Shown: piece by piece, positions 13,840 through 31,599 of the stretch
How the letters are laid out: every line of letters starts with the position of its first letter
Position numbering within the stretch: position 1 is the first letter of the stretch
Source of the DNA: Fusobacteriota bacterium
GTDB lineage: Bacteria; Fusobacteriota; Fusobacteriia; Fusobacteriales; JAAYPW01
NCBI GenBank assembly: GCA_012519615.1
Contig: JAAYPW010000064.1
Location: 1-32,111 of the forward strand
DNA: 32,111 nt
Reading direction: 5' to 3'
Notes under the pieces: generated by a model
The model's input: only the letters and a program-made list of their open reading frames with translations
What the model was told of the DNA's origin: nothing
Databases searched by the model: none
Program-made: the position numbers and the translations under genes

Positions 13840-15507
13840 ATGAAAGATATCGAAAATAAAATGACAAATTTTATAACTAATATTATTGATAAAGACCTTA
13901 AAGACAATAAACATAGTGGGAAAGTTATAACTAGATTCCCTCCAGAACCAAATGGATATATCCATATTGGTCATGCAAAATCTATCTGCTTAAATTTCGG
14001 TTTAGCGCTTCAATATAATGGCACTTGTAATCTTAGATTTGATGATACAAATCCTACAAAAGAAAATACAGAGTTTGTAGAATCAATTAAAAATGATGTT
14101 AAATGGCTTGGTTTTGATTACGGTGATAATCTTTATTTTGCATCTGATTATTTTGACATGATGTACAATTATGCTGTAGAATTAATAAAAAAAGGTAAAG
14201 CGTATGTATGTGACCTTAGTTTCGAAGAATCCAAAGAACATAAAGGAACACTAACTGTTGCTGGTAAAAATAGCCCATACAGAGATAGATCTATAGAAGA
14301 AAATCTTAATCTTTTTGAAAAAATGAAAAATGGTGAATTTGCAGAGGGTTCTTGTGTTTTACGTGCAAAAATTGATATGAGTTCGTCTAATGTTAATATG
14401 CGTGACCCTGTTATGTACCGTATACAAAAAGCATACCACCATAACACGAAAGATAAATGGTGTATTTATCCAATGTACGACTGGGCACACGGTATAGAAG
14501 ATTATATTGAGAAAATTACGCATTCTATATGTACGTTGGAGTTTGAAGACCATAGACCTCTTTATGATTGGTTCCTAGATAATCTCTCTTTAGATCACTA
14601 TCACCCACAACAAATTGAATTTGCAATGTTAAATATTACTAAAACAGTTCTTAGTAAAAGAAGATTAAAAAAACTTGTAGATGATAAGTTTGTAGATTCG
14701 TGGGATGATCCTAGAATGCCTACTGTTTCCGGAATGAGAAGAAGAGGATATCCTGCTGCTGCAATTAGAAATTTTGCAAATGCAATTGGTGTTTCAAAAA
14801 GTAATAGTTTAGTAGAATATGAATATTTAGAATTTTTCATTCGTAATGAATTAGATGAAATTGCAAGTAGAGCTATGGTCATTTTAGATCCAATTAAATT
14901 AGTCATTACAAACTATCCAGAAAACGAAGAGGAATGGTTCGATGCTAAAAATCATCCTAAAAAAGATGAGATGGGAACTAGAAAAATACCATTTTCTAGA
15001 GAAATTTACATTGAAAGAGATGACTTCATGGAAAATCCATCGAGTAAGTTTTTTAGACTAGCTCCTGGTACAGAAGTTAGATTACAACATGCTTATCATA
15101 TTACCTGCGATAACCTTGTGAAGGATGAAAATGGAAATATAATTGAAATTCAATGTTCATACGATCCTACAACAAAAGGTGGATGGGTTCCCGGTAGAAA
15201 AGTAAAAGGGACATTGCATTGGGTATCCGCTAAACATGCTGTTAAGGCTACTGCTAATATTTATTCACAAATTCTTACTGTGGATAGTTTAAACGACATC
15301 CCAGAAGATAAAGAGTTTACTGATTATTTTAATAAAGATTCATTAATAAAAAAAGAGTGTTTTATTGAACCTAGTATTTCTGATTCAGAACCTCTTAGTT
15401 ATTTTCAATTTTTAAGAAACGGTTATTTCTGTACAGATAAACTATCTACAAAAGAACATCCAATATTTAATTTAACTGTTTCACTTAAAGAATCTAAAGA
15501 TAAATAA
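13840..15507 (+). CDS. glnS: Glutaminyl-tRNA synthetase
   Basis: 555 residues, the same length as E. coli GlnRS. It charges tRNA-Gln with glutamine using ATP. The class I HIGH motif lies in [15 protein letters not shown] (about residues 33-47), and the KMSKS equivalent is [11 protein letters not shown] near residue 270. RFDDTNP and [13 protein letters not shown] are GlnRS-type signatures, and the C-terminal beta-barrel anticodon-binding region runs from about residue 340. AAGGAGG lies seven bases before the ATG. It is a single-gene transcript between its own promoter and a strong terminator. Presence of GlnRS suggests direct charging of Gln-tRNA, though GatCAB elsewhere is not excluded. Confidence 0.97.
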
Positions 15508-15530
15508 TATTAATTTATATATAAGAAATA

Positions 15531-15563
15531 AAAAAGTTGCTATAATGTATAGCAACTTTTTTA
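15531..15563. terminator. Bidirectional terminator between glnS and the fapA operon
   Basis: A perfect 14-bp stem (AAAAAGTTGCTATA, 15531-15544, pairs with 15548-15561) around a 3-nt loop. A runs and T runs on the two sides let it work in both directions, ending glnS (plus) and the fapA operon (minus). Confidence 0.92.
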
Positions 15564-15572
15564 TTTTCACAT

Positions 15573-17426
15573 TTATTCATTTAATTCACACGGTAATGTA
15601 GATATCTCCTTTTTATCATTATCAAAGAAAAAAGTACTAAATCTAAATATTTCTTTTGTTATCAGCTGATTTTCCCCAATTTTTATCACTGCTCCAGGGT
15701 ATAGTTCATTAAAAACATGTATTTTCCCCTTTCTGCCTTCATTTAACGCATTTACTAATATATTTTTTTCGTTTCTTAATTCTACAATTTTTTTATTTAT
15801 CTCAAATTTCTTTTTTGTTAAATTCAATAATAAGTTTCTGTATTTTGGATCCAGTTTACCTTGGATTTCTTGCATTCTAAGATTATCTGCTTCAGTATCT
15901 GTTCTCTCTTTCTCTTTTGTAATTTTCCTTAGTTCTTCATCTATTAATTTATTTTTTTCTATTATATCTGGTAATGCACCTACAGTTAATTCTGTTAGTA
16001 TTCCAAATTCTGTCCCCACATATTTTGTAACAATATTTTTTCCAGCGATTAAAGAGCCCCCTATTATTTTTCCCCGACCTTTTATACAGATAATATCATT
16101 TTTTGCATTAATATCACTATGTAAAATATTTTCAATAGCTTCTACAATCCCACCTGAATCTATTTTAGAATACTGTATAAATTTCGCTTCAACATTTCCT
16201 TCGGCTTTTATATAACCTTTTAAATCCTCTTTACCTAAAATTCCTTGTTTAACTTTTACATTTCCCTCTGTTTCAATTATTGCATCCTCTACAATCTCCT
16301 CTATTATAACATCGCCTTTTGCTTTAATTATAAATCCCTCTAATACCCTTCCTAATATGTGTACACTTCCATTAAATTCAATATTTCCAACTGAATAATC
16401 CACATTTCCACTTACAGTATATAAAGGTTGTACACTTATATTGCCATTTACATCAACTAATTGCCCGTCTATATCTGCTATTAAAAATTCCTCATTTTCT
16501 GTTAAGCTAGTATTTTTTCCAACAAATATTTTTTTATCATTACCTGGCTCTGGTATAATTTCCACACCTAATACATTTTTACCTTTTATACCATTAGTTG
16601 CAAATATTTTTTGTACAAGTTTTTCCCCTTTTGTCACATTTATTATTAAGTTTAAATCTCTTAAATTTGCTTTTCCAGATTCATCTTTTTTAATTTTTAT
16701 CTCACTTGATGTATCAAATAAAGTAATTATCTCTGCATTTTTACCTTTTTCTGACGGTTTTCCCCTTGCTACAATAATCTCTTTATCATATATTCTATTT
16801 TCTACAATCTCGTCTATTATATTTTTATCTACACCATATAAAATTGAATTTTCCGCTAAAAGAGTCATAATTTGATCTTTTGATATATGGTTTCCTCTAT
16901 GAGGTGGATAAGCAACAATTACAGCCTCCATATTATCTTTTCTTAATTCGATTCTTAAAAGTGCATCAATATAATAAGATTTATCATATTCAGCAATTTT
17001 TACCTTTTCACCTTTTTTTTCATATAATGCTTTTTTTACATTCTCTAAATTAGGATCTTTTATCTCTCTTCGCTCTAATTCTTTAATAATTAGTCTTTCG
17101 TTAGATGAATTAGACTCAAAATTTTCTTGAATTGTTATGAAAATTCCACTTTTTAATATCTCTATATTAAATTTTTCTTTTTTTTCAATTTTTTCTTTTA
17201 TTTCTACTTCTTTTTCTTTCTCCACTATAATAGATTCTACCTCATCTACATCTATTACTGTTTTCTCTATCCAAATCTTTAATGTTAATTCTTTAGTTTT
17301 CCCAAAAAATGTTTTTTCACGATTTACTATTTCATATTTCACAAAATCTATAGGTACATTAAAATGATTTGCAACTTTTTTTATTATCTCTTCTTCATTT
17401 GTTCCTTTAATTATATATTTTTTCAA
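15573..17426 (-). CDS. FapA-family protein (DUF342, flagellar assembly protein A)
   Basis: 617 residues. Residues 1-50 resemble the Jag N-terminal domain (KGTNEEEIIKKVANHFNV ... FFGKTKE). A charged linker at 55-90 (EKEKEVEIKEKIEKKEK) leads to the DUF342/FapA core. That core ends in a right-handed beta-helix of glycine-spaced strands at about 330-475 (GNVDYS, GDVIIEE, GNVKVKQG, GGSLIAGKN), followed by a coiled coil at about 490-565 and a short beta tail. FapA proteins are bactofilin-like polymer formers; in Vibrio one is needed for polar localisation of flagellar assembly. The start is TTG (17426) with GAGGTGA seven bases upstream. It is the last gene of the flagellar ring/rod operon, before the bidirectional terminator. 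Confidence 0.9.
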   Translation of the reverse strand: MKKYIIKGTNEEEIIKKVANHFNVPIDFVKYEIVNREKTFFGKTKELTLKIWIEKTVIDVDEVESIIVEKEKEVEIKEKIEKKEKFNIEILKSGIFITIQENFESNSSNERLIIKELERREIKDPNLENVKKALYEKKGEKVKIAEYDKSYYIDALLRIELRKDNMEAVIVAYPPHRGNHISKDQIMTLLAENSILYGVDKNIIDEIVENRIYDKEIIVARGKPSEKGKNAEIITLFDTSSEIKIKKDESGKANLRDLNLIINVTKGEKLVQKIFATNGIKGKNVLGVEIIPEPGNDKKIFVGKNTSLTENEEFLIADIDGQLVDVNGNISVQPLYTVSGNVDYSVGNIEFNGSVHILGRVLEGFIIKAKGDVIIEEIVEDAIIETEGNVKVKQGILGKEDLKGYIKAEGNVEAKFIQYSKIDSGGIVEAIENILHSDINAKNDIICIKGRGKIIGGSLIAGKNIVTKYVGTEFGILTELTVGALPDIIEKNKLIDEELRKITKEKERTDTEADNLRMQEIQGKLDPKYRNLLLNLTKKKFEINKKIVELRNEKNILVNALNEGRKGKIHVFNELYPGAVIKIGENQLITKEIFRFSTFFFDNDKKEISTLPCELNE

Positions 17427-17461
17427 AAAGACTCACCTCATTTCTTATTGAAATTAAAATA

Positions 17462-18133
17462 TTATATATTTAATTCCTCTTCTAACAGTATTTCTAATAT
17501 TACATCTGTTACCTCTGGATCAAATTGTTTTCCTTTTTGATTTTTTAACTCTTCAATTGCTTCAGATTTTGTTAAAGGTTTTTTATATGGTCTTTCTGAT
17601 ACCATAGCATCATAAGCTTCTGCTACATTTATTATCCTAGACATAATAGGTATATCTTCCCCTAATAGACCTTCTGGATATCCTCTCCCGTTATATTTTT
17701 CATTTTTTGACTTAACAACATTTTTTATTTTTTTAAAAAAATAGTTATTTTCTGTAATTTTATACGCGATAATTGGTGTTTTCTTTATAACATTAAATTC
17801 ATCTTCAGTTAATTTTTCCCTTTTATATAGTATTTTTTCTGGTATTCTTATCTTTGCTAATTGGCTTATATATATAGATAATTTCATATTCTTATAAAAA
17901 TCGCTTTCATTTATACCAAGTCGCTTTGCTATTTCACAAGACAATTCATTTACTTTTCTAGTATGCCCATTAAAGTAAGGATCCTTAGAATCAAATTCTG
18001 AAACAATACTTTGAATTAATTTAATATAAGCATCTCCTACATAAAAAAAATACTTAAATTTAAAATACAAAATCATTATCATTATAAATAAAATAATTAT
18101 TATTATAAACATGAAAAATGTAATATCACCCAT
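17462..18133 (-). CDS. Membrane-anchored HD-GYP-like protein lacking metal ligands
   Basis: 223 residues. Residues 5-30 form one membrane segment, and the rest aligns throughout with HD-GYP cyclic-di-GMP phosphodiesterase domains: FNGHTRKV (His57), IPEKIL, YNGRGYPEGLLGEDIP (the GYP at 151-153), INVAEAYDAMVSERPYKK and GKQFDPEVTDVIL. However, the HD pair is Ser90-Gln91 in SQLAK, the expected His of the xxHP segment is Thr119, and the HHE segment reads KNE (143-145). At least four metal-binding residues are lost, so catalysis is very unlikely. It may act as a cyclic-di-GMP sensor or a structural protein. It lies 13 bp after mlaE and 35 bp before fapA. The frame is intact, so this is not simple decay. 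Confidence 0.88.
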   Translation of the reverse strand: MGDITFFMFIIIIILFIMIMILYFKFKYFFYVGDAYIKLIQSIVSEFDSKDPYFNGHTRKVNELSCEIAKRLGINESDFYKNMKLSIYISQLAKIRIPEKILYKREKLTEDEFNVIKKTPIIAYKITENNYFFKKIKNVVKSKNEKYNGRGYPEGLLGEDIPIMSRIINVAEAYDAMVSERPYKKPLTKSEAIEELKNQKGKQFDPEVTDVILEILLEEELNI

Positions 18134-18146
18134 TATTATTCACTCC

Positions 18147-18911
18147 CTAGCTAAAAATTATAATTGATAAAAAAAAGTTGAAAATTAGTATTAACATTAT
18201 TGCTGCAACAACAGATGATGTTGTTGCAGTACCAACACCTTCTGAACCACCTTTTACATTCATACCTTTATAACACGCTACCGATGTTATTATGGTTCCA
18301 AAAAATAATGATTTTATTACTCCACCTATAATATCTTTTGTACTAAGTAAAAATTTTACCCCAGAAATATAAGTGCCTGATATTAGTCCTAATTTTAATA
18401 CTCCTATTATATATCCACCGAAAACACCTAAAAAATCTGCCATAATTGTAAGTATTGGTAACATTATAATTCCTGAAAATATACGAGGTGATACTAAATA
18501 GTCTATAGGGTTTACTGCCATTACTGATAATGCATCGATCTGCTCTGTAACTTTCATACTTCCTAGCTCGGCTGTTATTGCAGATCCTATTCTCCCTGCT
18601 ATAATAACTGCAGTTAGAGTTGGACCTAATTCTCTTGTAATTGCTAATGCAATTGTTCCACCTATTAATCCCTCTGCCTGAAATTTTCTAAATTCAGGTA
18701 CAAGCTGAATTATAAGGACCATCCCTGTAAATATAGAAACAATAAATACCAGTAAAAAAGATTTTATTCCAAAAGAATAAAGTTGCTCTACATATGCTCT
18801 TTTAACAAGTTTATTTTTTGAGAAAAATATATTTTTCATTCCATGAAAACCTTTTAAAACAAAAAACAAAATTCTACCAAGCTTAATCATTTTTCTTTGT
18901 GCTATATTCAT
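18147..18911 (-). CDS. mlaE: MlaE-family phospholipid-transport ABC permease (orphan)
   Basis: 254 residues from the ATG at 18911, which has GGAGA nine bases upstream; the ATG at 18920 is only 2 nt from that SD. Five or six hydrophobic segments. The family signature is complete: ITRELGPTLTAVIIAGRIG, ITAELGSMKVTEQIDAL and NPIDYLVSPRIF. MlaE works with the MlaF ATPase and the MlaD MCE protein in moving phospholipids between the inner and outer membranes. Neither partner gene is in the window. It overlaps the end of the S55-peptidase gene by 29 bp, which implies translational coupling inside a flagellar operon. Orthology to Mla rather than to another MlaE paralogue is not certain. Confidence 0.92.
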   Translation of the reverse strand: MNIAQRKMIKLGRILFFVLKGFHGMKNIFFSKNKLVKRAYVEQLYSFGIKSFLLVFIVSIFTGMVLIIQLVPEFRKFQAEGLIGGTIALAITRELGPTLTAVIIAGRIGSAITAELGSMKVTEQIDALSVMAVNPIDYLVSPRIFSGIIMLPILTIMADFLGVFGGYIIGVLKLGLISGTYISGVKFLLSTKDIIGGVIKSLFFGTIITSVACYKGMNVKGGSEGVGTATTSSVVAAIMLILIFNFFLSIIIFS

Positions 18912-20364
18912 ATATATCATTCTCCGCTTCGAAACTATCTATAATAATATCTTTTTCATATTCAAATTTCATAAAATTGTAATCTTCTATAGGTATATTT
19001 GTAGAAAATTTTACTTCATTTTCTTCATTTTTTATTCTAATCGATAATTCATTATTTTTAGTTTTATATTTATAATTGTTTATATATTCTAATAAATTTT
19101 GATATTCATGCCAATCTTTATCATCTTTATTTCCTGTGCTTATAGATATTATATAGTTTCCTACTTTTAAATTTCGAGGTATTTTTATCTCTATTTTTTG
19201 ATTTTTAAGCCCCTTTTGCATTACAAAATAATTTACATAAAATTCAATATTACTTCCCGGATTATATATTATGTTATTTGTTTTAATATTTTTTATATGT
19301 GCAAGTTTATTTTCTTTTTTTAGTTCAATGTCAATTACAATAGTTTCAAAATTAATATAATAAAATGGATTATTTATAATATTTAAAATATTTGATGAAA
19401 TTAAACTCGAAAAATTATGTATATTATTTTCTAAAAATGTATAGCAATTTTTATCTTCATAAAATGAACCTTTACTATTTTCAAGAGAAAAATTATAATT
19501 CATATGTTTATAATCTTCAGCATCAATCTCTTTTATAAGTACTGCTTCTATAACTTTATCCAAATAAAATTTAATGGTATTTTTATCGTTTACCATCTCC
19601 ATATTATATCTTATTATCTCATTGTCTTTTTTTACATTAACTTTTATCTTATTTACTTCAATATTTTCAGTGATTACTCCTAATAAACCAGTTGCTCTGT
19701 CTTGTAATACTAATCCAATTGTTTCTTTTACAGTTCCTATTTTAAATGGAGATTTACTATTTTTAATTACATAATCTACATTTGATGCGTTTAAAAAAAA
19801 TTTAATATCACCTTTATTACTAAAACTATGACCTAATGCAGAAAATATACCATTTTTTTCATATGTAAGTGTCCCTATATTTTCAAAATATATATCTCCC
19901 CTTACAGGTGAAATTGATACTGACATACCTGGCTTTATTTCATCTATATATTTACTATTTTCAATAATAAAATTTTCATTTTTTATCATATTTTTCTCTG
20001 TCTTTATAATATATTCTATTGGTGTAACAATTCCCATATTTAATGTGTCATAATCAATTGCATAACTTAATGCTCCTATTAGTTTTCCATCTATATAAAG
20101 AGGACTTCCGCTCATACCTTCAGATATTCCCCCTGCTTTGTATATTGTATTTCCATATAATTTAGCAAGGATCATTTTCGGTATTGTATCTGACGAATTT
20201 ATAATAGAGATAATTTCAAAATTAAACTGCTCTATTTTTCTATCTTCAATTACAGTATATCCGTGACCGCGCATCCCTTTTTCTAAATCATTTATCCCAA
20301 TTATCTCAAATGGGTATAAATATACAAATTGCATAAATATTAAGATAAATAATATTTTTTTCAT
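18883..20364 (-). CDS. Secreted SpoIVB/S55-peptidase-domain protein
   Basis: 493 residues with an N-terminal signal peptide (about 1-18), so it is probably periplasmic. The S55-type domain spans about residues 20-220: GMRGHGYTVIEDRKIEQF (30-47), the nucleophile motif GMSGSPLYIDGKLIGAL with Ser85, TPIEYII, and ALGHSFSNKGD with His179. The signature order (Ser motif before the His motif) matches the non-sporulation members of this family. Residues 230-493 are a beta-rich region with no recognised domain. In Bacillus SpoIVB cuts a partner to signal across a membrane; here the target is unknown. It is 12 bp after flgJ and overlaps mlaE. No sporulation context is present. Activity is inferred from the conserved motifs only. 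Confidence 0.85.
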   Translation of the reverse strand: MKKILFILIFMQFVYLYPFEIIGINDLEKGMRGHGYTVIEDRKIEQFNFEIISIINSSDTIPKMILAKLYGNTIYKAGGISEGMSGSPLYIDGKLIGALSYAIDYDTLNMGIVTPIEYIIKTEKNMIKNENFIIENSKYIDEIKPGMSVSISPVRGDIYFENIGTLTYEKNGIFSALGHSFSNKGDIKFFLNASNVDYVIKNSKSPFKIGTVKETIGLVLQDRATGLLGVITENIEVNKIKVNVKKDNEIIRYNMEMVNDKNTIKFYLDKVIEAVLIKEIDAEDYKHMNYNFSLENSKGSFYEDKNCYTFLENNIHNFSSLISSNILNIINNPFYYINFETIVIDIELKKENKLAHIKNIKTNNIIYNPGSNIEFYVNYFVMQKGLKNQKIEIKIPRNLKVGNYIISISTGNKDDKDWHEYQNLLEYINNYKYKTKNNELSIRIKNEENEVKFSTNIPIEDYNFMKFEYEKDIIIDSFEAENDIYEYSTKKND

Positions 20365-20376
20365 AACTAGCTCCTA

Positions 20377-20676
20377 TTAAATTTTATTTGATAATTGCTT
20401 ATAAAGCATCTCTGCTAATCCAATTCCTCCACTTTGAGACATACTTTTTGCTCTCTCGTCATTTAACATATCTTGAAATATCTCTTCTGATTTTCCACCA
20501 AAAAAAGGATTATTCTCTTTATTTAATGTGTTTTCCATTGAATCTATCATCATTTTTAAAAATATTGCCTCAAATTCTTCAGTTGCTTTTTTTAATTCTT
20601 TCTCCTCTTTTGTATTTGTTTCATTTATTTTTGTTTCTTTCATTATATTTGTAAAATTTAAATTATTTATCATCAT
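20377..20676 (-). CDS. flgJ: Rod-binding protein FlgJ, single-domain form
   Basis: 99 residues matching only the rod-binding N-terminal half of enterobacterial FlgJ: EEFEAIFLKMMIDSM, GGKSEEIFQDMLNDERA and MSQSGGIGLAEMLYKQL. It is thought to cap or scaffold the growing flagellar rod in the periplasm. The muramidase domain is absent, so the peptidoglycan-opening activity must come from another protein. Two adjacent ATG codons (20676, 20673) both fit the AAGGAA site. A 9-bp hairpin lies immediately upstream. Confidence 0.93.
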   Translation of the reverse strand: MMINNLNFTNIMKETKINETNTKEEKELKKATEEFEAIFLKMMIDSMENTLNKENNPFFGGKSEEIFQDMLNDERAKSMSQSGGIGLAEMLYKQLSNKI

Positions 20677-20684
20677 ATTTTCCT

Positions 20685-20706
20685 TACTAATTTAATAAAA
20701 TTAGTA
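20685..20706 (-). promoter_or_regulatory. Hairpin abutting the flgJ ribosome-binding site
   Basis: TACTAATTT (20685-20693), loop AATA and AAATTAGTA (20698-20706) form a perfect 9-bp stem between flgI and flgJ. On the mRNA its 3' arm runs straight into the AAGGAA site. There is no T run, so a terminator role is unlikely. It may set flgJ translation or mark an mRNA cleavage point. Confidence 0.6.
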
Positions 20707-20720
20707 GTTTTCACCACCTT

Positions 20721-21737
20721 TTACATAGTTTTTATCTCAGCATCTATTGCACCTGCATATTTTAATGCATTTAATATAGATATAATATCGTTTGGTCCTG
20801 CTCCAATTGCATTTAACATTTTTACTATATTTTTAACAGTATTCCCGCCATCATAATAAAATGAATTTGCATCACCTTTATTATTTGGATTATTTTTTAA
20901 TACATCTAATTCTGCTGCTATTGATATAGATATATCTTTATGTGTAATTGCAACTGGTGCTATTTTTATATTTTCACCTAAAATTATAGTTCCTGTTCTT
21001 TCATTTATTACAATTTGAGATTTTCTATCTGGTATAATCTCAATATTCTCTAGTAGAGATATAAAGCTAACAATATCACCAGAAAAAACATATGTTTTAT
21101 TTACTAAAATTGTCGATGCATCTAATGCAAAGGCCGTTTCAAAATTAAAAATTTTATTTATCTCATCAACAACCCTTGATGCTGTTGTGAAATCTGGTGT
21201 ATTTAAGATTAAATGTACTTTATCATCATAATCTAATTTTAAAGGTACCTCCTTCTCTACAATACCGCCATTTTGTATAAAGCCATTCACTTTATTATTT
21301 GTTTCATTAATAACTTTTGTTAAAGATCCTTGTGATGCCACATATACATTTCCATCTGCACCATAAAGAAGTGTCTGTAAAAGAACTCCCCCTTCTAAAT
21401 TTTTAGCATCATTTACAGAAGATACCATAACATCAATAGTGTCTCCCGGTTTTTTAAATGGTGGTAATTCAGCTGTAACCATAACTGTAGCTACATTTTT
21501 TGATTCTATTTGTGATAATGCAATATCTGTTCCAAAATATGAGTATAAATTTTTAAGCAATTGCGGTGTTAGAGGCGATTTATCTCCATTTCCTGATAAT
21601 CCTACAACAATTCCCATCCCCATTAATTGATTGGATCTTACACCTTTTACCCGTGATACCTCTTTTAATCTAACTTTTTGATTACCGTATATATTTACAC
21701 TTAATAAAATAAGTAAAATTATAATTATTTTTTTCAT
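20721..21737 (-). CDS. flgI: Flagellar P-ring protein FlgI
   Basis: 338 residues, slightly shorter than enterobacterial FlgI. A signal peptide covers about residues 1-18. Family signatures are VRLKEVSRVKGVRSNQLMG, GIVVGLSGNGDKSP, VMVTAELPPFKKPGDTIDV, INERTGTIILGENI and ALKYAGAIDAEI. It forms the periplasmic bushing around the rod in the peptidoglycan layer. It lies 10 bp after flgH. No flgA (P-ring chaperone) gene is in the window. Confidence 0.97.
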   Translation of the reverse strand: MKKIIIILLILLSVNIYGNQKVRLKEVSRVKGVRSNQLMGMGIVVGLSGNGDKSPLTPQLLKNLYSYFGTDIALSQIESKNVATVMVTAELPPFKKPGDTIDVMVSSVNDAKNLEGGVLLQTLLYGADGNVYVASQGSLTKVINETNNKVNGFIQNGGIVEKEVPLKLDYDDKVHLILNTPDFTTASRVVDEINKIFNFETAFALDASTILVNKTYVFSGDIVSFISLLENIEIIPDRKSQIVINERTGTIILGENIKIAPVAITHKDISISIAAELDVLKNNPNNKGDANSFYYDGGNTVKNIVKMLNAIGAGPNDIISILNALKYAGAIDAEIKTM

Positions 21738-21747
21738 ATTATGCCCC

Positions 21748-22425
21748 CTAAAAAAAGATTCCTACTATAGACGACAAAAAATTAGAAATAATACCTGGTT
21801 TTGCTTTACCATCGAATACAAGTTTTCCGTTATATTTAACTTGTGCATCTGATAAATATGCTGATTCAATGCTATTTTCCATAGATATATCCTGTGGCCT
21901 TACAAATCCTGTTATCTCAATCTCCTGTAATTCATTATTTATAAGTACATTCCTAGTCCCTTTCACATATAAATTCCCAGAACTATCTTTTTTCATAACT
22001 CTTGCTGATACTCTGGCTGTAAGGTTTCCGCTACGTTTTGTTGTTCCGCTACTATTTACTTTTGTATTACCCTCTGCTCCCATATCTGGTAACATGTTTA
22101 GAAATCCTGTCCCTGCTTTTGCATCAATTTTACCACCTTTTGCACGACTATTACTTGTTGTCTGTTGTGCCGAAGCATTTTCTCTAATTATAATAGATAG
22201 TAAATCCCCAACTTTAGAAGCTTTTTTATCACTATATAATGATCTAGATGAACTACTAAATAGAGAACCTGAATATTCTGTATCTTCCTCTTCATCTATA
22301 AAGTCAGCAAATGCTTCTGGTAATGGTTCTGTATTTACTATATTATCTGTATTTTTTTTATTATTGCTACAACCTGTTAATATCATTATTGTAATAACTA
22401 TAAATAACATTAATTTATTTTTCAT
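21748..22425 (-). CDS. flgH: Flagellar L-ring lipoprotein FlgH
   Basis: 225 residues, normal family length. The lipoprotein signal ends in LTGC (Cys19). L-ring signatures follow: SLYSDKKASKVGDLLSIII, NASAQQTT, and near the C-terminus NVLINNELQEIEITGFVRP with QDI and LSDAQVKYNGK. It forms the outer-membrane ring of the basal body, which is direct evidence for a diderm envelope. AAGGAG lies nine bases before the ATG. It is 13 bp after the rod gene and 10 bp before flgI. Confidence 0.97.
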   Translation of the reverse strand: MKNKLMLFIVITIMILTGCSNNKKNTDNIVNTEPLPEAFADFIDEEEDTEYSGSLFSSSSRSLYSDKKASKVGDLLSIIIRENASAQQTTSNSRAKGGKIDAKAGTGFLNMLPDMGAEGNTKVNSSGTTKRSGNLTARVSARVMKKDSSGNLYVKGTRNVLINNELQEIEITGFVRPQDISMENSIESAYLSDAQVKYNGKLVFDGKAKPGIISNFLSSIVGIFF

Positions 22426-22438
22426 ATTATAACACTCC

Positions 22439-23275
22439 TTATGTCCATTTACCTACTTCACCAACAACTTTAGAAAGCATCTCACTATGTGTAGTTAATA
22501 CTTTTTGATTGGTTTCATATGCTCTCGAACACGTTATCATCTCAACCATCTCTTTCACAGTATTTACTGTTGACTCTTCAATATGTCCTTGATGAAGTTT
22601 AAATTCTGATGCTATCTCTATATTTCCTACGTCGTTTAATGAGTAATACCCATCACCAATTTTATTAATTTTTGATAAATTTTCTACATTTACAACCATT
22701 AATTTATCTATATTAGGTTCTGTTTTATTTATTATACCAATATTTTCAATATCTCCAGTTACTTCTGCATTTATTAAATTACCATTATTATATATTGTAA
22801 AATCAGCATTTGTAGTTTTAACATATCCTGCTCTACCATCAGCAGAATATCCTAATAATTTTCCACCAATCATATTTACTAAAAATCCATCTTTATCCAC
22901 TGAGAAATTTCCACTTCTTTGTAGATAAATATTTCCTTTATCTTCAACTACAAATAATTCTTTCCCCTCTATTGCAAAATCAAGTTTATTATCTGTTTTT
23001 ATAATATTTCCTTGTGTGAATTCTGTATAGACATCATCAACAAAAGCACCTGTTCCTAATGTTCCTATTGGTGTTAATATACTTTTATGCTCAAAAGGTG
23101 TATTTATTTTTTCATCATCTTTTCTATATATTTCAAATTCTGGAAAATGTTTTATAACAGTTTGGTCTTTTTTATACCCTACAGTATTTATATTAGCAAT
23201 ATTATTTGATATTACATTTTCTCTTTCCATTTGAACCATCATTCCTGACGCAGCTGTATATATTCCTCTTATCAT
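22439..23275 (-). CDS. Flagellar rod protein of the FlgF/FlgG family
   Basis: 278 residues. The N-terminus IRGIYTAASGMMVQMER and ISNNIANINTVGYKK, the middle IEGKELFVV...YLQRSGNFSVDKDG and the C-terminal QGHIEESTVNTVKEMVEMI with RAYETNQKVL are characteristic of axial rod/hook-basal-body proteins. The length fits either proximal-rod FlgF or distal-rod FlgG. The QGxxExSxVN C-terminus and the position directly before flgH favour a FlgG-like role, but the second gene of the usual pair is not here, so I leave the symbol open. It is the first gene of the operon, with AGAGGTG before its ATG and a sigma-28-like promoter at 23328-23354. Confidence 0.93.
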   Translation of the reverse strand: MIRGIYTAASGMMVQMERENVISNNIANINTVGYKKDQTVIKHFPEFEIYRKDDEKINTPFEHKSILTPIGTLGTGAFVDDVYTEFTQGNIIKTDNKLDFAIEGKELFVVEDKGNIYLQRSGNFSVDKDGFLVNMIGGKLLGYSADGRAGYVKTTNADFTIYNNGNLINAEVTGDIENIGIINKTEPNIDKLMVVNVENLSKINKIGDGYYSLNDVGNIEIASEFKLHQGHIEESTVNTVKEMVEMITCSRAYETNQKVLTTHSEMLSKVVGEVGKWT

Positions 23276-23354: not shown

Positions 23355-23708
23355 TTATCATTATAATTTACAAATGTTATATTTAAATTATATTTTTAAA
23401 TCTTCATTTTTAATTACATGAAATTACCACTGTATTATTATAAAATCTTTATTTTTTTGCTTTTAAATCCTCGCTTTTAATCCGTGTCCATCTGTGGTAA
23501 AAATTATTTTTAATCTTTTAATCTTTTAATCTTTTATCCATGTTTATCCGTGTCCATCCGTGGTAAAAAATTATATGTTGTATTTCAATTTCAGCATTTA
23601 TTCCACAACTAAATTTCTGGGAATAAGATTATAAAATTAAATCTTCTCTATATTCTAACATATTTATTTATATAAGTAAAATATATTTATTTATTTTTTA
23701 ATTAATTT
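23355..23708. other. Gene-free gap holding GC-richer repeats
   Basis: This stretch, between the rod-operon promoter and the terminator of the large lipoprotein gene, has no credible reading frame. It contains the repeat block at 23478-23570, which differs in composition from the surrounding DNA. Nothing else was recognised. Confidence 0.5.
23478..23570. repeat. Two copies of a TCCGTGTCCATCYGTGGTA repeat plus an AATCTTTT tandem
   Basis: TCCGTGTCCATCTGTGGTAA occurs at 23481 and TCCGTGTCCATCCGTGGTAA at 23547, one mismatch apart, each followed by an A run. Between them AATCTTTT is repeated three times. The second copy is itself made of three 9-10-base units (ATCCATGTTT, ATCCGTGTCC, ATCCGTGGTA). 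The GC-richer words stand out sharply from the AT-rich surroundings. Confidence 0.85.
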
Positions 23709-23750: not shown

Positions 23751-26636
23751 TTATGGTATTTTTACATAAATTGTATCTGCTATTGCTGTTTTACCTGTTT
23801 TTGTATCCATAACTGTTAATATCGCTTCACCAATTGTATCCCCTTTATTAAATCCAGGTGAAATTGGAAATTTAACCGATACAGTTTGGCCTGGTTTTGA
23901 TGCAATATATTCTCCGTATATATCTCTAAATGTCCAGATATAACTTAAATTACTTGGTGAAGATTCACTTCCATCAAAACCAACTAACATCATATCATTT
24001 TCTGGTGCATTTTGATAGCTTATTTTTCCCTTAGCAACAATTGGGTTAGTGTCTGTAGGTTTACTATTTTCATCTTCTACTATTAAAATTTTTATTGTTT
24101 TTGTAACAGGCCCATTTCCTTCTCTATCATTTATTTGAAGCATAACTTCATATTCTCCAGGTTCATTATATGTGTGATCTATTTTTGACTCCCTTACAGA
24201 TTCTAATATTCCATCTCCTAAATTAAAATCCCATGCATAATAAGCAATTTCATCATTATCAAAAGAGTTTGTACCGTCAAAGAATATCGGTTCCCCTACT
24301 TTAGCTACCTCTTTATCCACTGTAATTATTGCTGTTGGTGGTATAATATCCCTTATCTTTATTATCATATCGTATGTAGGATATTCATCAATAAGTATAT
24401 TTCCAGATGTCAGTTCCACCCCTTTTACACTTCCACTAACTACTACTTCCCCTAATTTATCTGTACCATCATGTATATTTTCTTTTAATTTATAGTATGC
24501 AATAATAGTTATTTCAGAATTTAAATCAGTTATTACAGTATTTTCTCTTATTGTTGTTTCAACAAGTGTCCACTTATCAGATATATCTTTTCCATTTTGT
24601 GTAAATCTAGCTGCAACATCTGTTACTCTTACATCTTCGTCACCATTATTTCGTATCTCAAATTTAATTGGTATTCCAGATTGACCTGGATTTACATGCG
24701 ACCAATCACTATATATTCTTTTTAATGTTAAATCTCCACCTAATCTAAAATCTGCAATAAGATCTTTGTTTCTTATTTCATATTGTTCATTGCTATTTGG
24801 TTCTATAGGGTATTCTTTTATTTCAAACTTAATAGTACCGTATTTTTTTTCCGATGGTGCAATTAATCTCCAAGTTATTTTTTCATCTATATTTATATAT
24901 TTTTCACTTACCTCATCATTTGCAAAACGTAATCCTTCTATAGAATTAGGATTTATTGCAATTTTAATTTTACCAGAAATTTTATTTTTAGGATTTGTAT
25001 TAGTTATCTCTGCATATACTTCAAATTCACTGCCAGATTTTACTATTCCGTCTAATGCACCATAATTTAGTTCCGAATAACCTACAGTAAGCTCTAATTC
25101 AGGTTTTTTCTTTACATTTATTGGTATTAATATCTCATTTTTACTGAATTTTATACTAAATTCATCTTCGCCCACTCTATATGTTGGCTCTTTATTTATC
25201 TTAATTTTAATATTACCTTTTATTTCAATTGATGGCATTTTTACTTCCCACTCTTTTTTCTGATTAAATTCTATAGATTCATTTTTATTTCCTTTTAAAA
25301 GTGTAGCCCCGTCAAGTTCTGAATAATCAATAGTAATATCACCTTTTTCATATATTGTTACATTTCCATCATAGTTTACCCTATAATATACAGTAAAACT
25401 TTGTCCAGCAGAAACTTCTCCATCTTTTGCACCATCAGGATATGCAATCCATGCTTCTATATTTGCAGTACTTACATCTCTAACCTCAACAATTCCTATT
25501 TTTTCTGAATGTTCGTCTTCTACTGTTATTCCACCTATTTCACCAATAACACTTGCATCAAGATAAATCTTACCTGTTGTAGCATTTGGAGATAATGTAT
25601 ATGTTCTAGTTATTGTCATTTCTGATCCAGGTGGTATCCTTTTCTCTTCTGATCTACTGTCAACCCATTCATTGCTAACATTTACCCCTTTTTCTGTATA
25701 AAAATTTGGTGTAATTGATTTGATCGTTAAGTATTCATCTGTATTTGAATTTTTAATATCGTATCTTATATTTATATTTGATTGTCCTGGTACAACACTA
25801 CTACTTGATAATGCTACTTCTTTTAATTCTATTTTTGCATTTTTATCTATTATAATAGTTATTTCTTTTGTTAGAAGTTGAGAATATGTAACTGATTTTT
25901 CTGTATTTAAATCTAATATTGTTGGTGTAACATACACTGTTTCTACTGCATTTAATGCATTTGGTTTAACTTGTTTTAATTCGTATGATATTGTAAATAT
26001 TTTTCTTTCACCAGCATCTAATTCCCAGATTTCTTCATTTTGTATTCCTTTAAAATAATCATTCCAAGTCCCAAATGATACCATTGGAAGAAATTCATGT
26101 TTTCCAGTACCTTTATTAGTTATCGAGTATGTTAAATCAATTGTATCACCAATTTCCATTGATACTCTACTAAAATTAATTGAATTTATTTCTAAATCTA
26201 TTTTTTGGTCGGCATCACTCATTGTAGTAAAAGTAGTTATACTACTTGTTTTAGAAACCTCAAGAGTTCTTTTATTTATCCCCCAAACTTGAAAACTATA
26301 TTGTGTGCTCTCTTTTAAATTAGAAAATTTTACTTTTGTATATGATATTCCCTCTTCTTTTTTGGATAAGATTCCACCTTCTTTTAATTCATATTTATAC
26401 AAAAAATCTGAAGGATTATATCCTTCTTGTGTAGCAATATACTGAATATCTACATTTAAATTAGATTTTTCTTTAGGTGGTGCACTTACGATGCTTATAT
26501 TTATTGGTTTTTCTACAACAATATCATCATCTTTAGGTATATCCACAATTTTATTTCCACTACTACTACTTGAAAAGCATCCTGTCATTAGTATTAAAAT
26601 AAAAAAAATAAAATAATATGATAAAGTTTTTTTCAT
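23751..26636 (-). CDS. Large multidomain surface lipoprotein (FN3, CARDB-like, PKD)
   Basis: 961 residues. A lipoprotein signal ends in MTGC (Cys20), followed by a Ser-rich linker. Residues 45-140 resemble a fibronectin type III domain (STQYSFQVWGINK). Five CARDB-like beta-sandwich segments follow, starting near residues 146, 265, 392, 515 and 635, each with a pattern such as VNPGQSGIPIKFEIRNNG. Residues 764-853 form a PKD domain (PPTAIITVDK ... YYAWDFNLGDG ... HTYNEPGEYEVML), and the last 100 residues resemble a second PKD-like fold. Such chains are usually extended, surface-exposed binding or structural modules. The gene sits between the flagellin glycosylation gene and the rod/ring operon, with its own sigma-28-like promoter and terminator, so it is likely co-regulated with motility. 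Its ligand is unknown. Confidence 0.85.
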   Translation of the reverse strand: MKKTLSYYFIFFILILMTGCFSSSSSGNKIVDIPKDDDIVVEKPINISIVSAPPKEKSNLNVDIQYIATQEGYNPSDFLYKYELKEGGILSKKEEGISYTKVKFSNLKESTQYSFQVWGINKRTLEVSKTSSITTFTTMSDADQKIDLEINSINFSRVSMEIGDTIDLTYSITNKGTGKHEFLPMVSFGTWNDYFKGIQNEEIWELDAGERKIFTISYELKQVKPNALNAVETVYVTPTILDLNTEKSVTYSQLLTKEITIIIDKNAKIELKEVALSSSSVVPGQSNINIRYDIKNSNTDEYLTIKSITPNFYTEKGVNVSNEWVDSRSEEKRIPPGSEMTITRTYTLSPNATTGKIYLDASVIGEIGGITVEDEHSEKIGIVEVRDVSTANIEAWIAYPDGAKDGEVSAGQSFTVYYRVNYDGNVTIYEKGDITIDYSELDGATLLKGNKNESIEFNQKKEWEVKMPSIEIKGNIKIKINKEPTYRVGEDEFSIKFSKNEILIPINVKKKPELELTVGYSELNYGALDGIVKSGSEFEVYAEITNTNPKNKISGKIKIAINPNSIEGLRFANDEVSEKYINIDEKITWRLIAPSEKKYGTIKFEIKEYPIEPNSNEQYEIRNKDLIADFRLGGDLTLKRIYSDWSHVNPGQSGIPIKFEIRNNGDEDVRVTDVAARFTQNGKDISDKWTLVETTIRENTVITDLNSEITIIAYYKLKENIHDGTDKLGEVVVSGSVKGVELTSGNILIDEYPTYDMIIKIRDIIPPTAIITVDKEVAKVGEPIFFDGTNSFDNDEIAYYAWDFNLGDGILESVRESKIDHTYNEPGEYEVMLQINDREGNGPVTKTIKILIVEDENSKPTDTNPIVAKGKISYQNAPENDMMLVGFDGSESSPSNLSYIWTFRDIYGEYIASKPGQTVSVKFPISPGFNKGDTIGEAILTVMDTKTGKTAIADTIYVKIP

Positions 26637-26675: not shown

Positions 26676-26703
26676 GTATCGGAAATATAGGTATTTTCCT
26701 TTA
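26676..26703 (-). promoter_or_regulatory. Sigma-28-like promoter for the PKD/CARDB lipoprotein
   Basis: TAAA (26703-26700, overlapping the preceding stop codon), a 16-bp spacer and TCCGATAC (26683-26676). The spacer contains an imperfect inverted repeat (GGAAAATA / TATTTCC). The predicted leader is about 30 nt. Confidence 0.45.
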
Positions 26704-28020
26704 AATAATATTTAAATTATTTAAGATATATTCTTTTAATTTAACAGCTTTTGTCCCTTTTATTTTTGCACCACCTTCAGTTGCATCTATATAAGCAATA
26801 TTTTTATTTTCACCAATATATTTTTCAATCCACCGTAGATAATGGTATAAATTTTTAAGAGTGTATATTTTTTTACCATCTACACTTTCTATTTCTATTA
26901 AATTGTTAAGATTTGTTTTTTCTTTATTTAAAAGTGTTCCTGTTGCATGTGTATTTAAATTACTACTAAGAGCTAAATCTTGACCAACAAACACGATATT
27001 AGTAGCACCTAATTGATTTGCAAAATCAAGTGCTGTTGTTGCAACAGAGCCTCCTGTTTGTATTAACCCCTTATTGTATTTTTCCTCCATTTTAGAATAA
27101 TATGAATCTTTATCTGGAAATGCAACTATTTTTTTGCCACTATAATGATTTAATAATTTACTATTTACACTCGGAATATATACTAGTGGTATCTCTAGCT
27201 GTAAATAATTTTCAAGTTGATTATATACATTTAATAAAGGATCAATTACAACAATATAATCAGGTTTTATTCCATTTTTCATTAAAATATCCACAACAGT
27301 CCCTACAGAAATTATAACTCCATTATTTTTTATATTTTTCAATTCATTTATATTTTTATTAAGTGAAGGTCCTCCTGAAATTATAAATATTGTACTATTT
27401 TTGTGTTTATCTCTATATTCCTTTACTCCAATACTCTCAATTACAGTCTTCATATTTGCATCTATATTTTTTTCTACAATTTCTCTATCTTTCTCTAGGC
27501 TTTGTTTATCAATCATTATTTTATCAATAATATCGTATAATTTGGGATAATAATCCTTTGAAAGTTTAAATAAAGGGCTATTTATTACTATTTTACCTTT
27601 TAAACTAGTATTATCTAAAATATTCGATATCTTTTTCATAAGTATCTCTTCGTTACCGTAAACTAATTCTATATTTTCACTTTGTATAAATTTTTTCTCT
27701 ATGTTTGAATTAATAAATTCTAAAAATATATCAGGATTTAAAATTAATACAAATATTTTTTGATTATTTTTAATATTTTTAAGAAAATAATCTATATGAT
27801 ATCCTAAACCAAATCCAATAATTAAAAAATAGTCTATCTCTTTATCATAGTTTATATTGAAAAAACGTTCATTTTCTTTCTCAATATTATATTTACTTGT
27901 AATTAATAGATTATTTACTTTTAGAGTTAATTTATTTTCTTTTGAAAATTCCCTTATAATTTCCCTATTAATACCAAAATTTTTAATAAGATTATCTATC
28001 TCTTTTTCTAATTTATTCAT
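26701..28020 (-). CDS. Maf-type motility-associated glycosyltransferase (DUF115)
   Basis: 439 residues. The DUF115/MptE-like core starts with FIISGGPSLNKNI (about 212-224), followed by VIISVGTVVDILMKNGIKPD, YIVVIDP and FVGQDLALS, the signatures of Maf flagellin glycosyltransferases, which attach nonulosonic acids (pseudaminic or legionaminic acid) to flagellin. The N-terminal segment (IIGFGLGYHIDYFLKNI) is the usual companion domain. It acts in the cytoplasm on flagellin before export. No sugar-biosynthesis genes are in the window. The position between the flagellin operon and the ring operon fits this role. GGGGG lies before the ATG, and a promoter-like element is at 28069-28099. Confidence 0.88.
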   Translation of the reverse strand: MNKLEKEIDNLIKNFGINREIIREFSKENKLTLKVNNLLITSKYNIEKENERFFNINYDKEIDYFLIIGFGLGYHIDYFLKNIKNNQKIFVLILNPDIFLEFINSNIEKKFIQSENIELVYGNEEILMKKISNILDNTSLKGKIVINSPLFKLSKDYYPKLYDIIDKIMIDKQSLEKDREIVEKNIDANMKTVIESIGVKEYRDKHKNSTIFIISGGPSLNKNINELKNIKNNGVIISVGTVVDILMKNGIKPDYIVVIDPLLNVYNQLENYLQLEIPLVYIPSVNSKLLNHYSGKKIVAFPDKDSYYSKMEEKYNKGLIQTGGSVATTALDFANQLGATNIVFVGQDLALSSNLNTHATGTLLNKEKTNLNNLIEIESVDGKKIYTLKNLYHYLRWIEKYIGENKNIAYIDATEGGAKIKGTKAVKLKEYILNNLNII

Positions 28021-28842: not shown

Positions 28843-31209
28843 TTATGAATTACTACTACTTAATGATGATACCTGTGAACTTAGCCAAGAACCTGTACTT
28901 TGACTTTGACTCATTGCTTGTTCCATGGCAAGATACTGCTTTCTCATTGCTTCTTCTCTTAAATTTAATCTTTCTGTCATACTTGCGATCCATTTATTCA
29001 TATCTTTTATTCTATTATCAAAAGTTTTTAAGTGTTGCCCCATAGTTCCATTATATGTTGTGAACGGTTTTAAATATGCACCAATTTTTATTGCAAGACC
29101 GTCACTTGATTTGGAGTTATCTATATTATAGTTTGCGTATATTGCTGCTCCAGCTGTTGGAGCTGTTCCAAATTTCAATTTACCTGTAAGTAAGTCAACA
29201 AAAACATCATTTTCTCCTGGGTCACCATTTGTTATTATTTTATTTGGACCTGTTAATGTGTATTCAATATTCCCAACTTTTATAGTCATATCATTACTGT
29301 CTAAAGGGATCCCCTTTAAACTAAAGGAAATATTATTTCCATCTCCAGAATCTACCAATTCATCCTTAATAAATCCTGTTCCCACATTTTTAGTAAATAA
29401 TTGTTGTACAGATGTAGGATCATTTTTTAATGCTTCTTTTAATTTTGCTGAATCTATTACGAGTTTATTACTTTTAAAATCTTCAATCTTAATTCCTACC
29501 ATAGATAACTGATTATATTCTGGTTTCGCACCATTCACAACCGATGTCATCTCTCTTCTAAGTCTATTTAGCATATTATTTGCCGTACTATTTCCCTGTA
29601 AATCTCCACCTTTTGCTGTTTTTTCCTCTATATATTTCACAATATCATTATATGAATTTATAAATTCTTCAATTTCTTTATATGCTTTATCTACATCAGA
29701 TTTTATTTCAACTTTGACAGTTTCACCCTTTGTTGTATTTGATTTTAATTCTATATTTACACCATTTACAACAAATTTATTACTATCTTTTGTAAATTGA
29801 ACTCCATTAATCTTTACACTTGCCTTTGTACCTTGATATACAGACACACCTTCTCTTGTATCAGAATCACCAGATTGATTCATAAGATTAATTGCTTTTA
29901 AAAAATTAGCTGTATCATTTTCTAGTACAATATCTTTACCAGGTTCTGTACCAACCATTGTAATATCTGCGTTATCCTCATCATAAAAAAGTGTAACTCC
30001 TGCATTTGAACTATTGATTTTTTTTATCACAGATTCTAGTGTATCCACTGATTTATCTACTTCAAATGTATATCCATTAATTGTAAAAAAACCTGTATCG
30101 CTAACACTATCAAACGCTGCAACATCAGACAAAGTTTTTTGGTAATCAGAGTTAATTCCATTTGATACTGTTGTATTTACAACTGAATCTAATCCTACCG
30201 AATTTAAAAACCCTGTAGTGTCCTCACCAAATTTAATTTTATTAGTAGAACCTTTATTAACCGATTCAATTTTAAATTGATTTGTTATCTCATCATAACT
30301 TGCTTTTACAGAAGCATTTGCATTATTTATTTTATTTATAACTAAATTTAATGTATCATTTTCATTTATTGTTATTGTTTTATCATTAATTTTAAAACTA
30401 CCGCTACTTATATTTACACCTGTTAACTCAGAAAATCTTATATTTCCTGATGTTATTTCACTTGTTCCAGCTGCAAAAGCACTTTTTGCACTTTCAAATA
30501 CATTTGTTGTTTCTGGATTTACGCCATTTTTTATATTTTGTCCTAACAAATCATTAATTCCTAAACTCTCAAAAAAACTCGAACTATCGCTTTCAAAGTT
30601 AATTTCTCCTGCAGTTCCTATTAATTTTGATTCAAACTTTAGAGTTCCATTTGAACTATCAAAACTTACATTTACATTTGCATTTGAATTATTTATTTTA
30701 TCCATTACAGTATCCAGCGAATCATTTGAGTTTATCTCGATTTCAATATTATTTATTTTAATAGTTCCATTTGTAAGACCAAATCCTAGTTGATTTAACG
30801 GCATCAATTTATCAGAAACCGATATATTTCTTGAAATATTCGAACTGCTACCTCCAGTAGAACCAATTTTAGCTCCACTAGTCACTCTACCAGCCTGTGC
30901 CAACTTAATATCTTCCAATATATAAGATACCTCAGCAGTATTATTTTGAGCTACTGCTGTTGCAAGTTTCTCATCTGAGCTTTCTACAGTTCTTGCTCCA
31001 AATGTAGCGTTAAAAGTCAAATCCTTTGCTTGAGACTGTAAGTCTTTTAATTTAACATCAATTTCTGTCCATATAGCTTTTTCATTTTCTATTTTTGATA
31101 TTTGTTCCTCTTTTGAATAAATTGGTATTTTTTCAAGTTCCATAAACTTACTTATTATTGTACTTGTATCTAATCCTGAAGCTAGACCTGATAATTGTAT
31201 CCCAGCCAT
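28843..31209 (-). CDS. fliD: Flagellar filament cap protein FliD (enlarged)
   Basis: 788 residues, much longer than the typical 450-550. The FliD N-terminal domain is at about 1-100 (IQLSGLASGLDTSTIISKFM). The FliD C-terminal domain includes NSYNDIVKYIEEKTAKGG, MLNRLRREMTSVVNG, GIKIEDFKSNKLVID and a final coiled coil (REEAMRKQYLAMEQAMSQSQ). Between them are three copies of an IN-motif module, at about residues 147-194, 268-317 and 372-420, each of the form KINxxxIxI...DxLxxVxxKINxxNAxVxxxYD. They account for most of the extra length. The cap guides flagellin folding at the filament tip; the inserted domains should be surface exposed. It lies 27 bp after flaG. Confidence 0.95.
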   Translation of the reverse strand: MAGIQLSGLASGLDTSTIISKFMELEKIPIYSKEEQISKIENEKAIWTEIDVKLKDLQSQAKDLTFNATFGARTVESSDEKLATAVAQNNTAEVSYILEDIKLAQAGRVTSGAKIGSTGGSSSNISRNISVSDKLMPLNQLGFGLTNGTIKINNIEIEINSNDSLDTVMDKINNSNANVNVSFDSSNGTLKFESKLIGTAGEINFESDSSSFFESLGINDLLGQNIKNGVNPETTNVFESAKSAFAAGTSEITSGNIRFSELTGVNISSGSFKINDKTITINENDTLNLVINKINNANASVKASYDEITNQFKIESVNKGSTNKIKFGEDTTGFLNSVGLDSVVNTTVSNGINSDYQKTLSDVAAFDSVSDTGFFTINGYTFEVDKSVDTLESVIKKINSSNAGVTLFYDEDNADITMVGTEPGKDIVLENDTANFLKAINLMNQSGDSDTREGVSVYQGTKASVKINGVQFTKDSNKFVVNGVNIELKSNTTKGETVKVEIKSDVDKAYKEIEEFINSYNDIVKYIEEKTAKGGDLQGNSTANNMLNRLRREMTSVVNGAKPEYNQLSMVGIKIEDFKSNKLVIDSAKLKEALKNDPTSVQQLFTKNVGTGFIKDELVDSGDGNNISFSLKGIPLDSNDMTIKVGNIEYTLTGPNKIITNGDPGENDVFVDLLTGKLKFGTAPTAGAAIYANYNIDNSKSSDGLAIKIGAYLKPFTTYNGTMGQHLKTFDNRIKDMNKWIASMTERLNLREEAMRKQYLAMEQAMSQSQSTGSWLSSQVSSLSSSNS

Positions 31210-31236
31210 TTTTACCCCTCCCCTACCTTATCTTAC

Positions 31237-31599
31237 TTATCCTTTTTCATCATATATTGTTCCTATTATTTCTTCTAATCCTTTTGCTATTTTTATTGAT
31301 TCTTCTGACGGAATTTGTCTTATAATTTCACCAGTATCTGTATTAAAAACTTTAACTACCCATTCACCTAGATCATCTACTTTTTCAAATCTTAATCCTC
31401 TTTTCATAATATCGTCATTTGTATTAAGTTTCTTAATTGTGTTTTCAAGTTCTTTTGAATCTATTTTATTTTCATTGCTATTTGAATACTTTTTTATTGA
31501 TCCATTTTCAACAGTAGATAGTTTACCAACATTATTTAATTGTTGTTGATTAGATGTTTTATTTACTTGTAACTCAAAAGATAATTTATTTATATTCAT
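31237..31599 (-). CDS. flaG: FlaG family protein
   Basis: 120 residues. The C-terminal FlaG domain is clear (LRFEKVDDLGEWVVKVFN, TGEIIRQIPSEESIKIAKGL); the first 50 residues are a low-complexity Asn/Ser/Lys region. FlaG influences filament length in several bacteria. It lies between flagellin and fliD, its usual position. CGGAGGTG precedes the ATG. Confidence 0.93.
   Translation of the reverse strand: MNINKLSFELQVNKTSNQQQLNNVGKLSTVENGSIKKYSNSNENKIDSKELENTIKKLNTNDDIMKRGLRFEKVDDLGEWVVKVFNTDTGEIIRQIPSEESIKIAKGLEEIIGTIYDEKG

Follow-up and report, generated by a model that had tools for sequence, protein, structure and literature searches.

An L/P-ring flagellar operon of a Fusobacteriota bacterium with fapA and probable outer-membrane upkeep genes

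Members of the Fusobacteriota are mostly non-motile, and a search of the literature found no direct description of a flagellum from this phylum. A flagellated member is represented by a contig of 32,111 nucleotides (JAAYPW010000064.1, assembly GCA_012519615.1; the whole stretch is referred to here as the window), and it raises the question of why genes for the flagellar rings should share an operon with those encoding an S55-like peptidase, an MlaE permease, a degenerate HD-GYP protein and FapA. The original prediction, made from the sequence alone, was that these four accessory genes form an envelope module of the flagellum, preparing or sensing the envelope at the site of ring insertion. The reading that we consider probable is that an L/P-ring operon has been joined by FapA and by genes of general outer-membrane upkeep. 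Given that relatives without flagella keep MlaE and S55, there is less to suggest a new flagellar machine than a gene neighbourhood of the envelope in general, which may have been captured by flagellar control.

Organization of the operon

Eight genes in the order flgF/G-flgH-flgI-flgJ-S55-mlaE-pseudo-HD-GYP-fapA run from 23275 to 15573, all on the minus strand, with intergenic gaps of 13, 10, 44, 12, -38, 13 and 35 bp; this arrangement had been predicted correctly, and the families named were matched in Pfam. The single overlap, that of S55 and mlaE, is 38 bp as annotated and would be shorter with a later ATG in mlaE. The first gene (22439..23275) encodes a rod protein of the FlgF/FlgG family (Flg_bbr_C, 5.1e-17; Flg_bb_rod), and it is followed by those for the L-ring lipoprotein FlgH (21748..22425; PF02107, 3.7e-45), the P-ring protein FlgI (20721..21737; PF02119, 1.3e-95), and a FlgJ rod-binding protein of 99 aa (20377..20676; PF10135, 3.3e-17) in which a domain scan detected no muramidase domain. 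Thus, the four basal-body genes of the original prediction were all matched, with the qualification that the first scores better as FlgF than as FlgG in NCBIfam (151 vs 124 bits), its best equivalog, FlgF, remaining under the model's cut-off. With flgH and flgI adjacent, and the rod and FlgJ genes on the same strand, the locus is an L/P-ring operon. Members of the FlgF/G, FlgH, FlgI and FlgJ families serve in the distal rod and rings, which the present proteins would build. The last gene (15573..17426) carries both FapA_N (PF20250, 7.5e-44) and the beta-solenoid (PF03961, 7.1e-62) of FapA, and the genome has a second FapA paralogue, whose contig also encodes a FliA-type sigma factor; FlhA is present as well.

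The strong terminator predicted for the end of the operon was found at 15525..15567 as a perfect stem of 19-20 bp with a loop of three bases and a T run; it is strong on both strands and is common to the convergent gene at 13840-15507. The predicted sigma-28-like promoter is less convincing: TACA-N15-GTCGATAA (23354-23328, minus strand) agrees with the consensus at 10 of 12 positions, which is chance level by itself in so AT-rich a window. However, the orthologous operon of Haliovirga abyssi, a species of Fusobacteriota, has the perfect consensus TAAA-N15-GCCGATAA (12/12) just upstream of its first gene. This motif renders sigma-28 control of the long operon plausible in both genomes with the full gene set, and the L/P-ring operon would probably be transcribed by this sigma factor. 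The consensus was not found before the ring operons of two other genera, g8 and g11, and a scan of the window for sigma-70 promoters was at chance level (66 found vs 66.1 expected).

Upstream of the operon and on the same strand are flaG, fliD and a Maf/MptE-like gene (28843-31599 and 26701-28020), which indicate that all of the window's right part is given to flagellar genes. In the interval from the Maf-like gene to the ring operon, 23751-26636 encodes a putative lipoprotein of 961 aa with a PKD domain, and the intergenic region of 475 bp upstream of the operon contains short repeated tracts (ttaccac-gatggacacggat and attaaaagatt; 23460-23600). Elsewhere in the window, a SNF2-type helicase bearing a SWIM zinc finger is encoded at 3606-7343.

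Distribution of the accessory genes

A survey of 98 genomes of Fusobacteriota identified FlgI in six, belonging to four genera, and FlhA in five; the one FlgI genome without a FlhA match (G046) is 70% complete. H. abyssi (G063; L042:8241-15954), which represents a second family, has all eight genes in unchanged order. Genus g8 has flgF/G-H-I-J-S55-fapA, with mlaE and the HD gene missing, and genus g11 has only flgF/G-H-I-J-fapA. Two genes follow the operon in H. abyssi, g8 and g11, one of the DUF2344 type (domain scanned in locus L043) and one serS-like (named by its N-terminus only); in g8, an Omp85-OmpH-LpxD cluster lies directly upstream of the ring operon. The second replicon of H. abyssi (L222; 100% identity to NZ_AP027060.1) carries a third FapA gene.

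Full-length FapA (>170 bits) is present in all six FlgI genomes and in none of the 92 others (p ~1e-9, kinship ignored), and it is the only accessory gene that behaves as flagellum-bound. S55 is likewise strongly enriched, in four of the six flagellated genomes vs one of the 92 others (kinship again ignored), but that one, G045, has neither FlgI nor FlhA. To one side of its S55 gene are DUF2344-type and serS-like genes, and to the other are lspA-like, lpxD-like and ompH-like genes together with a gene confirmed as Omp85, the flg genes being missing from this syntenic position; conversely, the flagellated G046 and G047 have no S55. Full-length MlaE occurs in two of the six FlgI genomes and in G001 and G097, both without FlgI and FlhA, where it is encoded apart from S55 elsewhere in the genome and where MlaF and MlaD are also present. 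Neither MlaE nor MlaD was found in the flagellated G040 and G041, in which both were sought. One 3.8-kb contig of G047 bears part of an MlaE gene, which was disregarded as possible contamination: the adjacent gene encodes DUF5122 and DUF7619 domains, and a search of that genome gave no MCE gene.

With S55 and MlaE each found without flagella, and flagella found without either, the two genes dissociate from flagella in both directions and are not flagellum-specific accessories; lineages that lost flagella retained some of the envelope genes. The proposal that the accessory genes are tied to flagella thus stands for FapA, and fails for S55 in G045 and for MlaE in G001 and G097. Presence and equal clustering of these genes in non-flagellated relatives had been named in advance as the result that would speak against the module, and this is largely what was observed for S55, which is syntenic, and for MlaE, which is not clustered with S55.

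Outside the phylum, none of S55, MlaE, the HD gene and FapA was found within ~8 kb of flgI at 40 flgI loci (at one of these, L212, flgI was not recovered by the ORF caller); where flgI was recovered, its neighbours are mostly flgG/H and flgJ. A search of contigs with FlgI matched one Desulfovibrio locus, which is without the accessory set. The tail of the operon is therefore phylum-specific among the genomes sampled.

The envelope genes

The secreted S55-like protein (18883..20364) is matched by Pfam and NCBIfam models over the C-terminal portion of SpoIVB only (PF05580, 2.8e-12, profile positions 126-194), and with 42 bits vs a cut-off of 305 for TIGR02860, again confined to that portion of the model, it is not SpoIVB proper. 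In comparison with the solved SpoIVB (PDB 9lnf), the N-terminal serine segment matches chain positions 222-301, and a middle histidine segment resembles positions 118-140 with a weak score and a clear motif; the two segments are swapped, which indicates a circular permutation. Among 71 homologues, Ser85 (codon 20112-20110) is conserved in 99%, His179 (codon 19830-19828) in 97%, Asp222 in 99% and Asp157 in 94%, and the serine within GMSGSP with a downstream histidine places the protein in a permuted S55-like family. A single-sequence AlphaFold2 prediction gave no usable fold (pLDDT 30).

The literature search yielded no direct description of this family, which was found in 75 of 389 genomes searched across the Bacteria. 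At 68 S55 loci outside the phylum, neither flagellar genes nor FapA were found nearby. MlaE lies directly downstream of S55 at two of them, L119 (S55-MlaE-MlaF-MlaD) and L116 (S55-MlaE), whose S55 proteins have the top scores of all outside the phylum, and at two further loci S55 has an MreB-like gene on one side and large genes of outer-membrane assembly on the other (MreB-like-S55-TamB-Omp85 in L109, which was scanned). In a phylogenetic tree, the fusobacterial proteins fall within a supported group of 22 rows (99/98) together with the MlaE- and TamB-linked S55 proteins. Given its distribution, its neighbours and the conserved Ser and His, the S55-like protein would be exported and probably active, as a serine protease or autoprotease for outer-membrane upkeep, with no part in the flagellum.

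A second group of the tree has 49 rows, mostly with a conserved partner of ~720 aa. A protein of this size is encoded directly after S55 in 39 of 51 loci in the series L129-L180 (e.g., L178:6322-8370 and L146:5655-7874); 37 of 40 partner candidates form one family by BLAST, and two that were scanned gave weak propeller-like Pfam matches. It is possible that S55 and the ~720-aa protein constitute an undescribed pair.

MlaE (18147..18920; PF02405, 3.6e-78) is above the cut-off of TIGR00056, matches the MlaE-family structure 7ch8 (5.7e-45), and is the only match in the whole genome. Described originally as a lone permease, it is indeed alone in the operon, but MlaF and MlaD are encoded elsewhere in the genome as an adjacent pair, the ATPase scoring best as MlaF in NCBIfam. 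A search of 12 genomes for MCE/MlaD found it in exactly four, those with full-length MlaE, and in each it adjoins the best MlaF match. MlaD is long here (~460-470 aa). In the window's genome, the genes after MlaF-MlaD are those for a 1482-aa protein with no Pfam match, Omp85 and OmpH/Skp and then a partial lpxD-like gene; the pattern of sizes is the same in the other three genomes. With MlaE, MlaF and an MCE-domain MlaD, the genome has the gene content of MlaFED, and with the MlaF-MlaD pair elsewhere, the simplest reading of MlaE is as the permease of an MlaFED whose genes are split. It would then be the membrane component of the only Mla transporter in the cell, serving to move phospholipid between the membranes and so to keep the outer membrane asymmetric.

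The membrane-anchored pseudo-HD-GYP (17462..18133; PF13487, HD_5, 3.5e-36) is degenerate, as had been predicted: the H-D of the HD motif is replaced by S-Q, the third His by T, the HH of HHE by KN and the last Asp by E, so that most metal ligands, including those defining an HD-GYP phosphodiesterase, are lost. A search of 16 genomes for this short TM-HD form found a clear orthologue only in Haliovirga (47% identity, 201 bits), the next best matches having 38-40% identity and <140 bits. Both copies are without the HD pair, and that of Haliovirga retains the other ligands. Its catalysis probably lost, the protein may act as a membrane scaffold or ligand-binding protein, which is the weakest step of the present proposal.

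Alternative readings and comparison with known systems

That the four accessory genes constitute a dedicated module for ring insertion appears quite improbable. The identical eight-gene order in two families, which together with the perfect promoter of H. abyssi supports cotranscription, and the strictly flagellar FapA are in its favour, and yet S55 and MlaE are doubly dissociated from flagella inside the phylum, and the 40 outside flgI loci are without any of the four genes. More probable, though still unlikely, is that the flagellum has captured lipid upkeep, with the sole MlaE, and S55 along with it, placed under sigma-28 so that Mla activity is tied to flagellation; ring insertion and rotation would push phospholipids into the outer leaflet, necessitating repair. 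Unless there is an internal promoter, a housekeeping gene would hardly be expected third from the end of a flagellar operon with a sigma-28 promoter, where the sole mlaE is found in two families, with the perfect promoter in H. abyssi. Moreover, the FapH ring of Helicobacter pylori keeps the outer-membrane barrier intact during flagellar rotation (PMC11756786); rotation can thus damage this barrier, and a functional link between flagella and Mla, while rather doubtful, is possible. On the other hand, MlaF, MlaE and MlaD all persist in two lineages that have no flagella, the flagellated g8 manages without MlaE and MlaD, and an internal promoter before mlaE is possible by sequence. By the fuller form of this account, for which we see only a small chance, this lineage and Haliovirga hold their only Mla permease under sigma-28, with repair of lipid asymmetry in step with flagella; S55 would serve as a protease of the envelope, and the dead HD-GYP would be an adaptor at the membrane.

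A chance fusion of operons in an AT-rich, compact genome, with zero functional link, is very improbable. The envelope genes can each occur apart from flagella, as such a fusion would have it, but the S55-MlaE pair recurs at two of 68 outside loci vs ~0.03 expected (our own estimate, from 1-2 MlaE per ~3000 genes), with the proviso that the two loci, whose S55 proteins form a clade, may represent one event. Ring and outer-membrane genes also cluster in g8 and in diderm Firmicutes (PMC5007114). The joining of an L/P-ring operon with FapA and outer-membrane upkeep genes remains our preferred reading; counting against it are the unusual position of the sole mlaE in both full operons, the enrichment of S55 with flagella, the restriction of the HD orthologue to the two full operons, and a sample of only six flagellated genomes from four genera. 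FapA would probably act in flagellar assembly or placement, and ring and outer-membrane genes may lie side by side because they share a concern with the outer membrane and came together early.

The phylum thus offers a natural experiment in which FapA belongs to flagella, and S55 and MlaE are general envelope genes. It draws attention to a widespread family of permuted S55 proteins, little characterised so far, with links to the assembly of outer-membrane lipid and protein, and also to a split Mla system with a permease that may be under flagellar control. If this is true, protection of the outer membrane around a rotating flagellum would be testable in a named species, H. abyssi.

Recruitment of FapA to the pole by HubP is known for Vibrio vulnificus from the title of Park et al. 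(2019), cited in PMC8789113; the protein is of the same family, and here it ends a ring operon. The S55-like protein shares with SpoIVB (MEROPS S55) the GMSGSP serine segment and the GTxT...GH histidine segment, but their order is reversed and the score is far under the SpoIVB cut-off. Vpar_0521 of Veillonella parvula, a SpoIVB-domain protein of the outer-membrane proteome that is conserved in diderm Firmicutes and has a proposed outer-membrane role (PMC5491611), is comparable by description, with the SpoIVB domain in common and a C-terminal DUF1090 of its own. The MlaFED of V. parvula likewise combines MlaE, MlaF and a long MlaD near outer-membrane assembly genes (PMC10665443); unlike that system, MlaE here is encoded away from MlaF-MlaD, and the position of the downstream tamB homologue is taken by the 1482-aa protein.

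The original prediction knew of no described system with this set, and this may hold for the exact set: neither it nor a sole MlaE behind a sigma-28 promoter was found described in the literature searched. Ring genes inside an outer-membrane locus, however, have been described; flgF,G,A,H,I,J of the Negativicutes and Halanaerobiales reside within a conserved locus with genes for LPS and outer-membrane-protein assembly (Antunes et al., 2016; PMC5007114). As excerpted, that account describes no S55-MlaE-HD-FapA tail, and the present operon differs from the locus in having a sigma-28-like promoter and in carrying the sole MlaE. In both, the cluster of ring and rod genes lies among outer-membrane genes, separate from the main flagellar operon.
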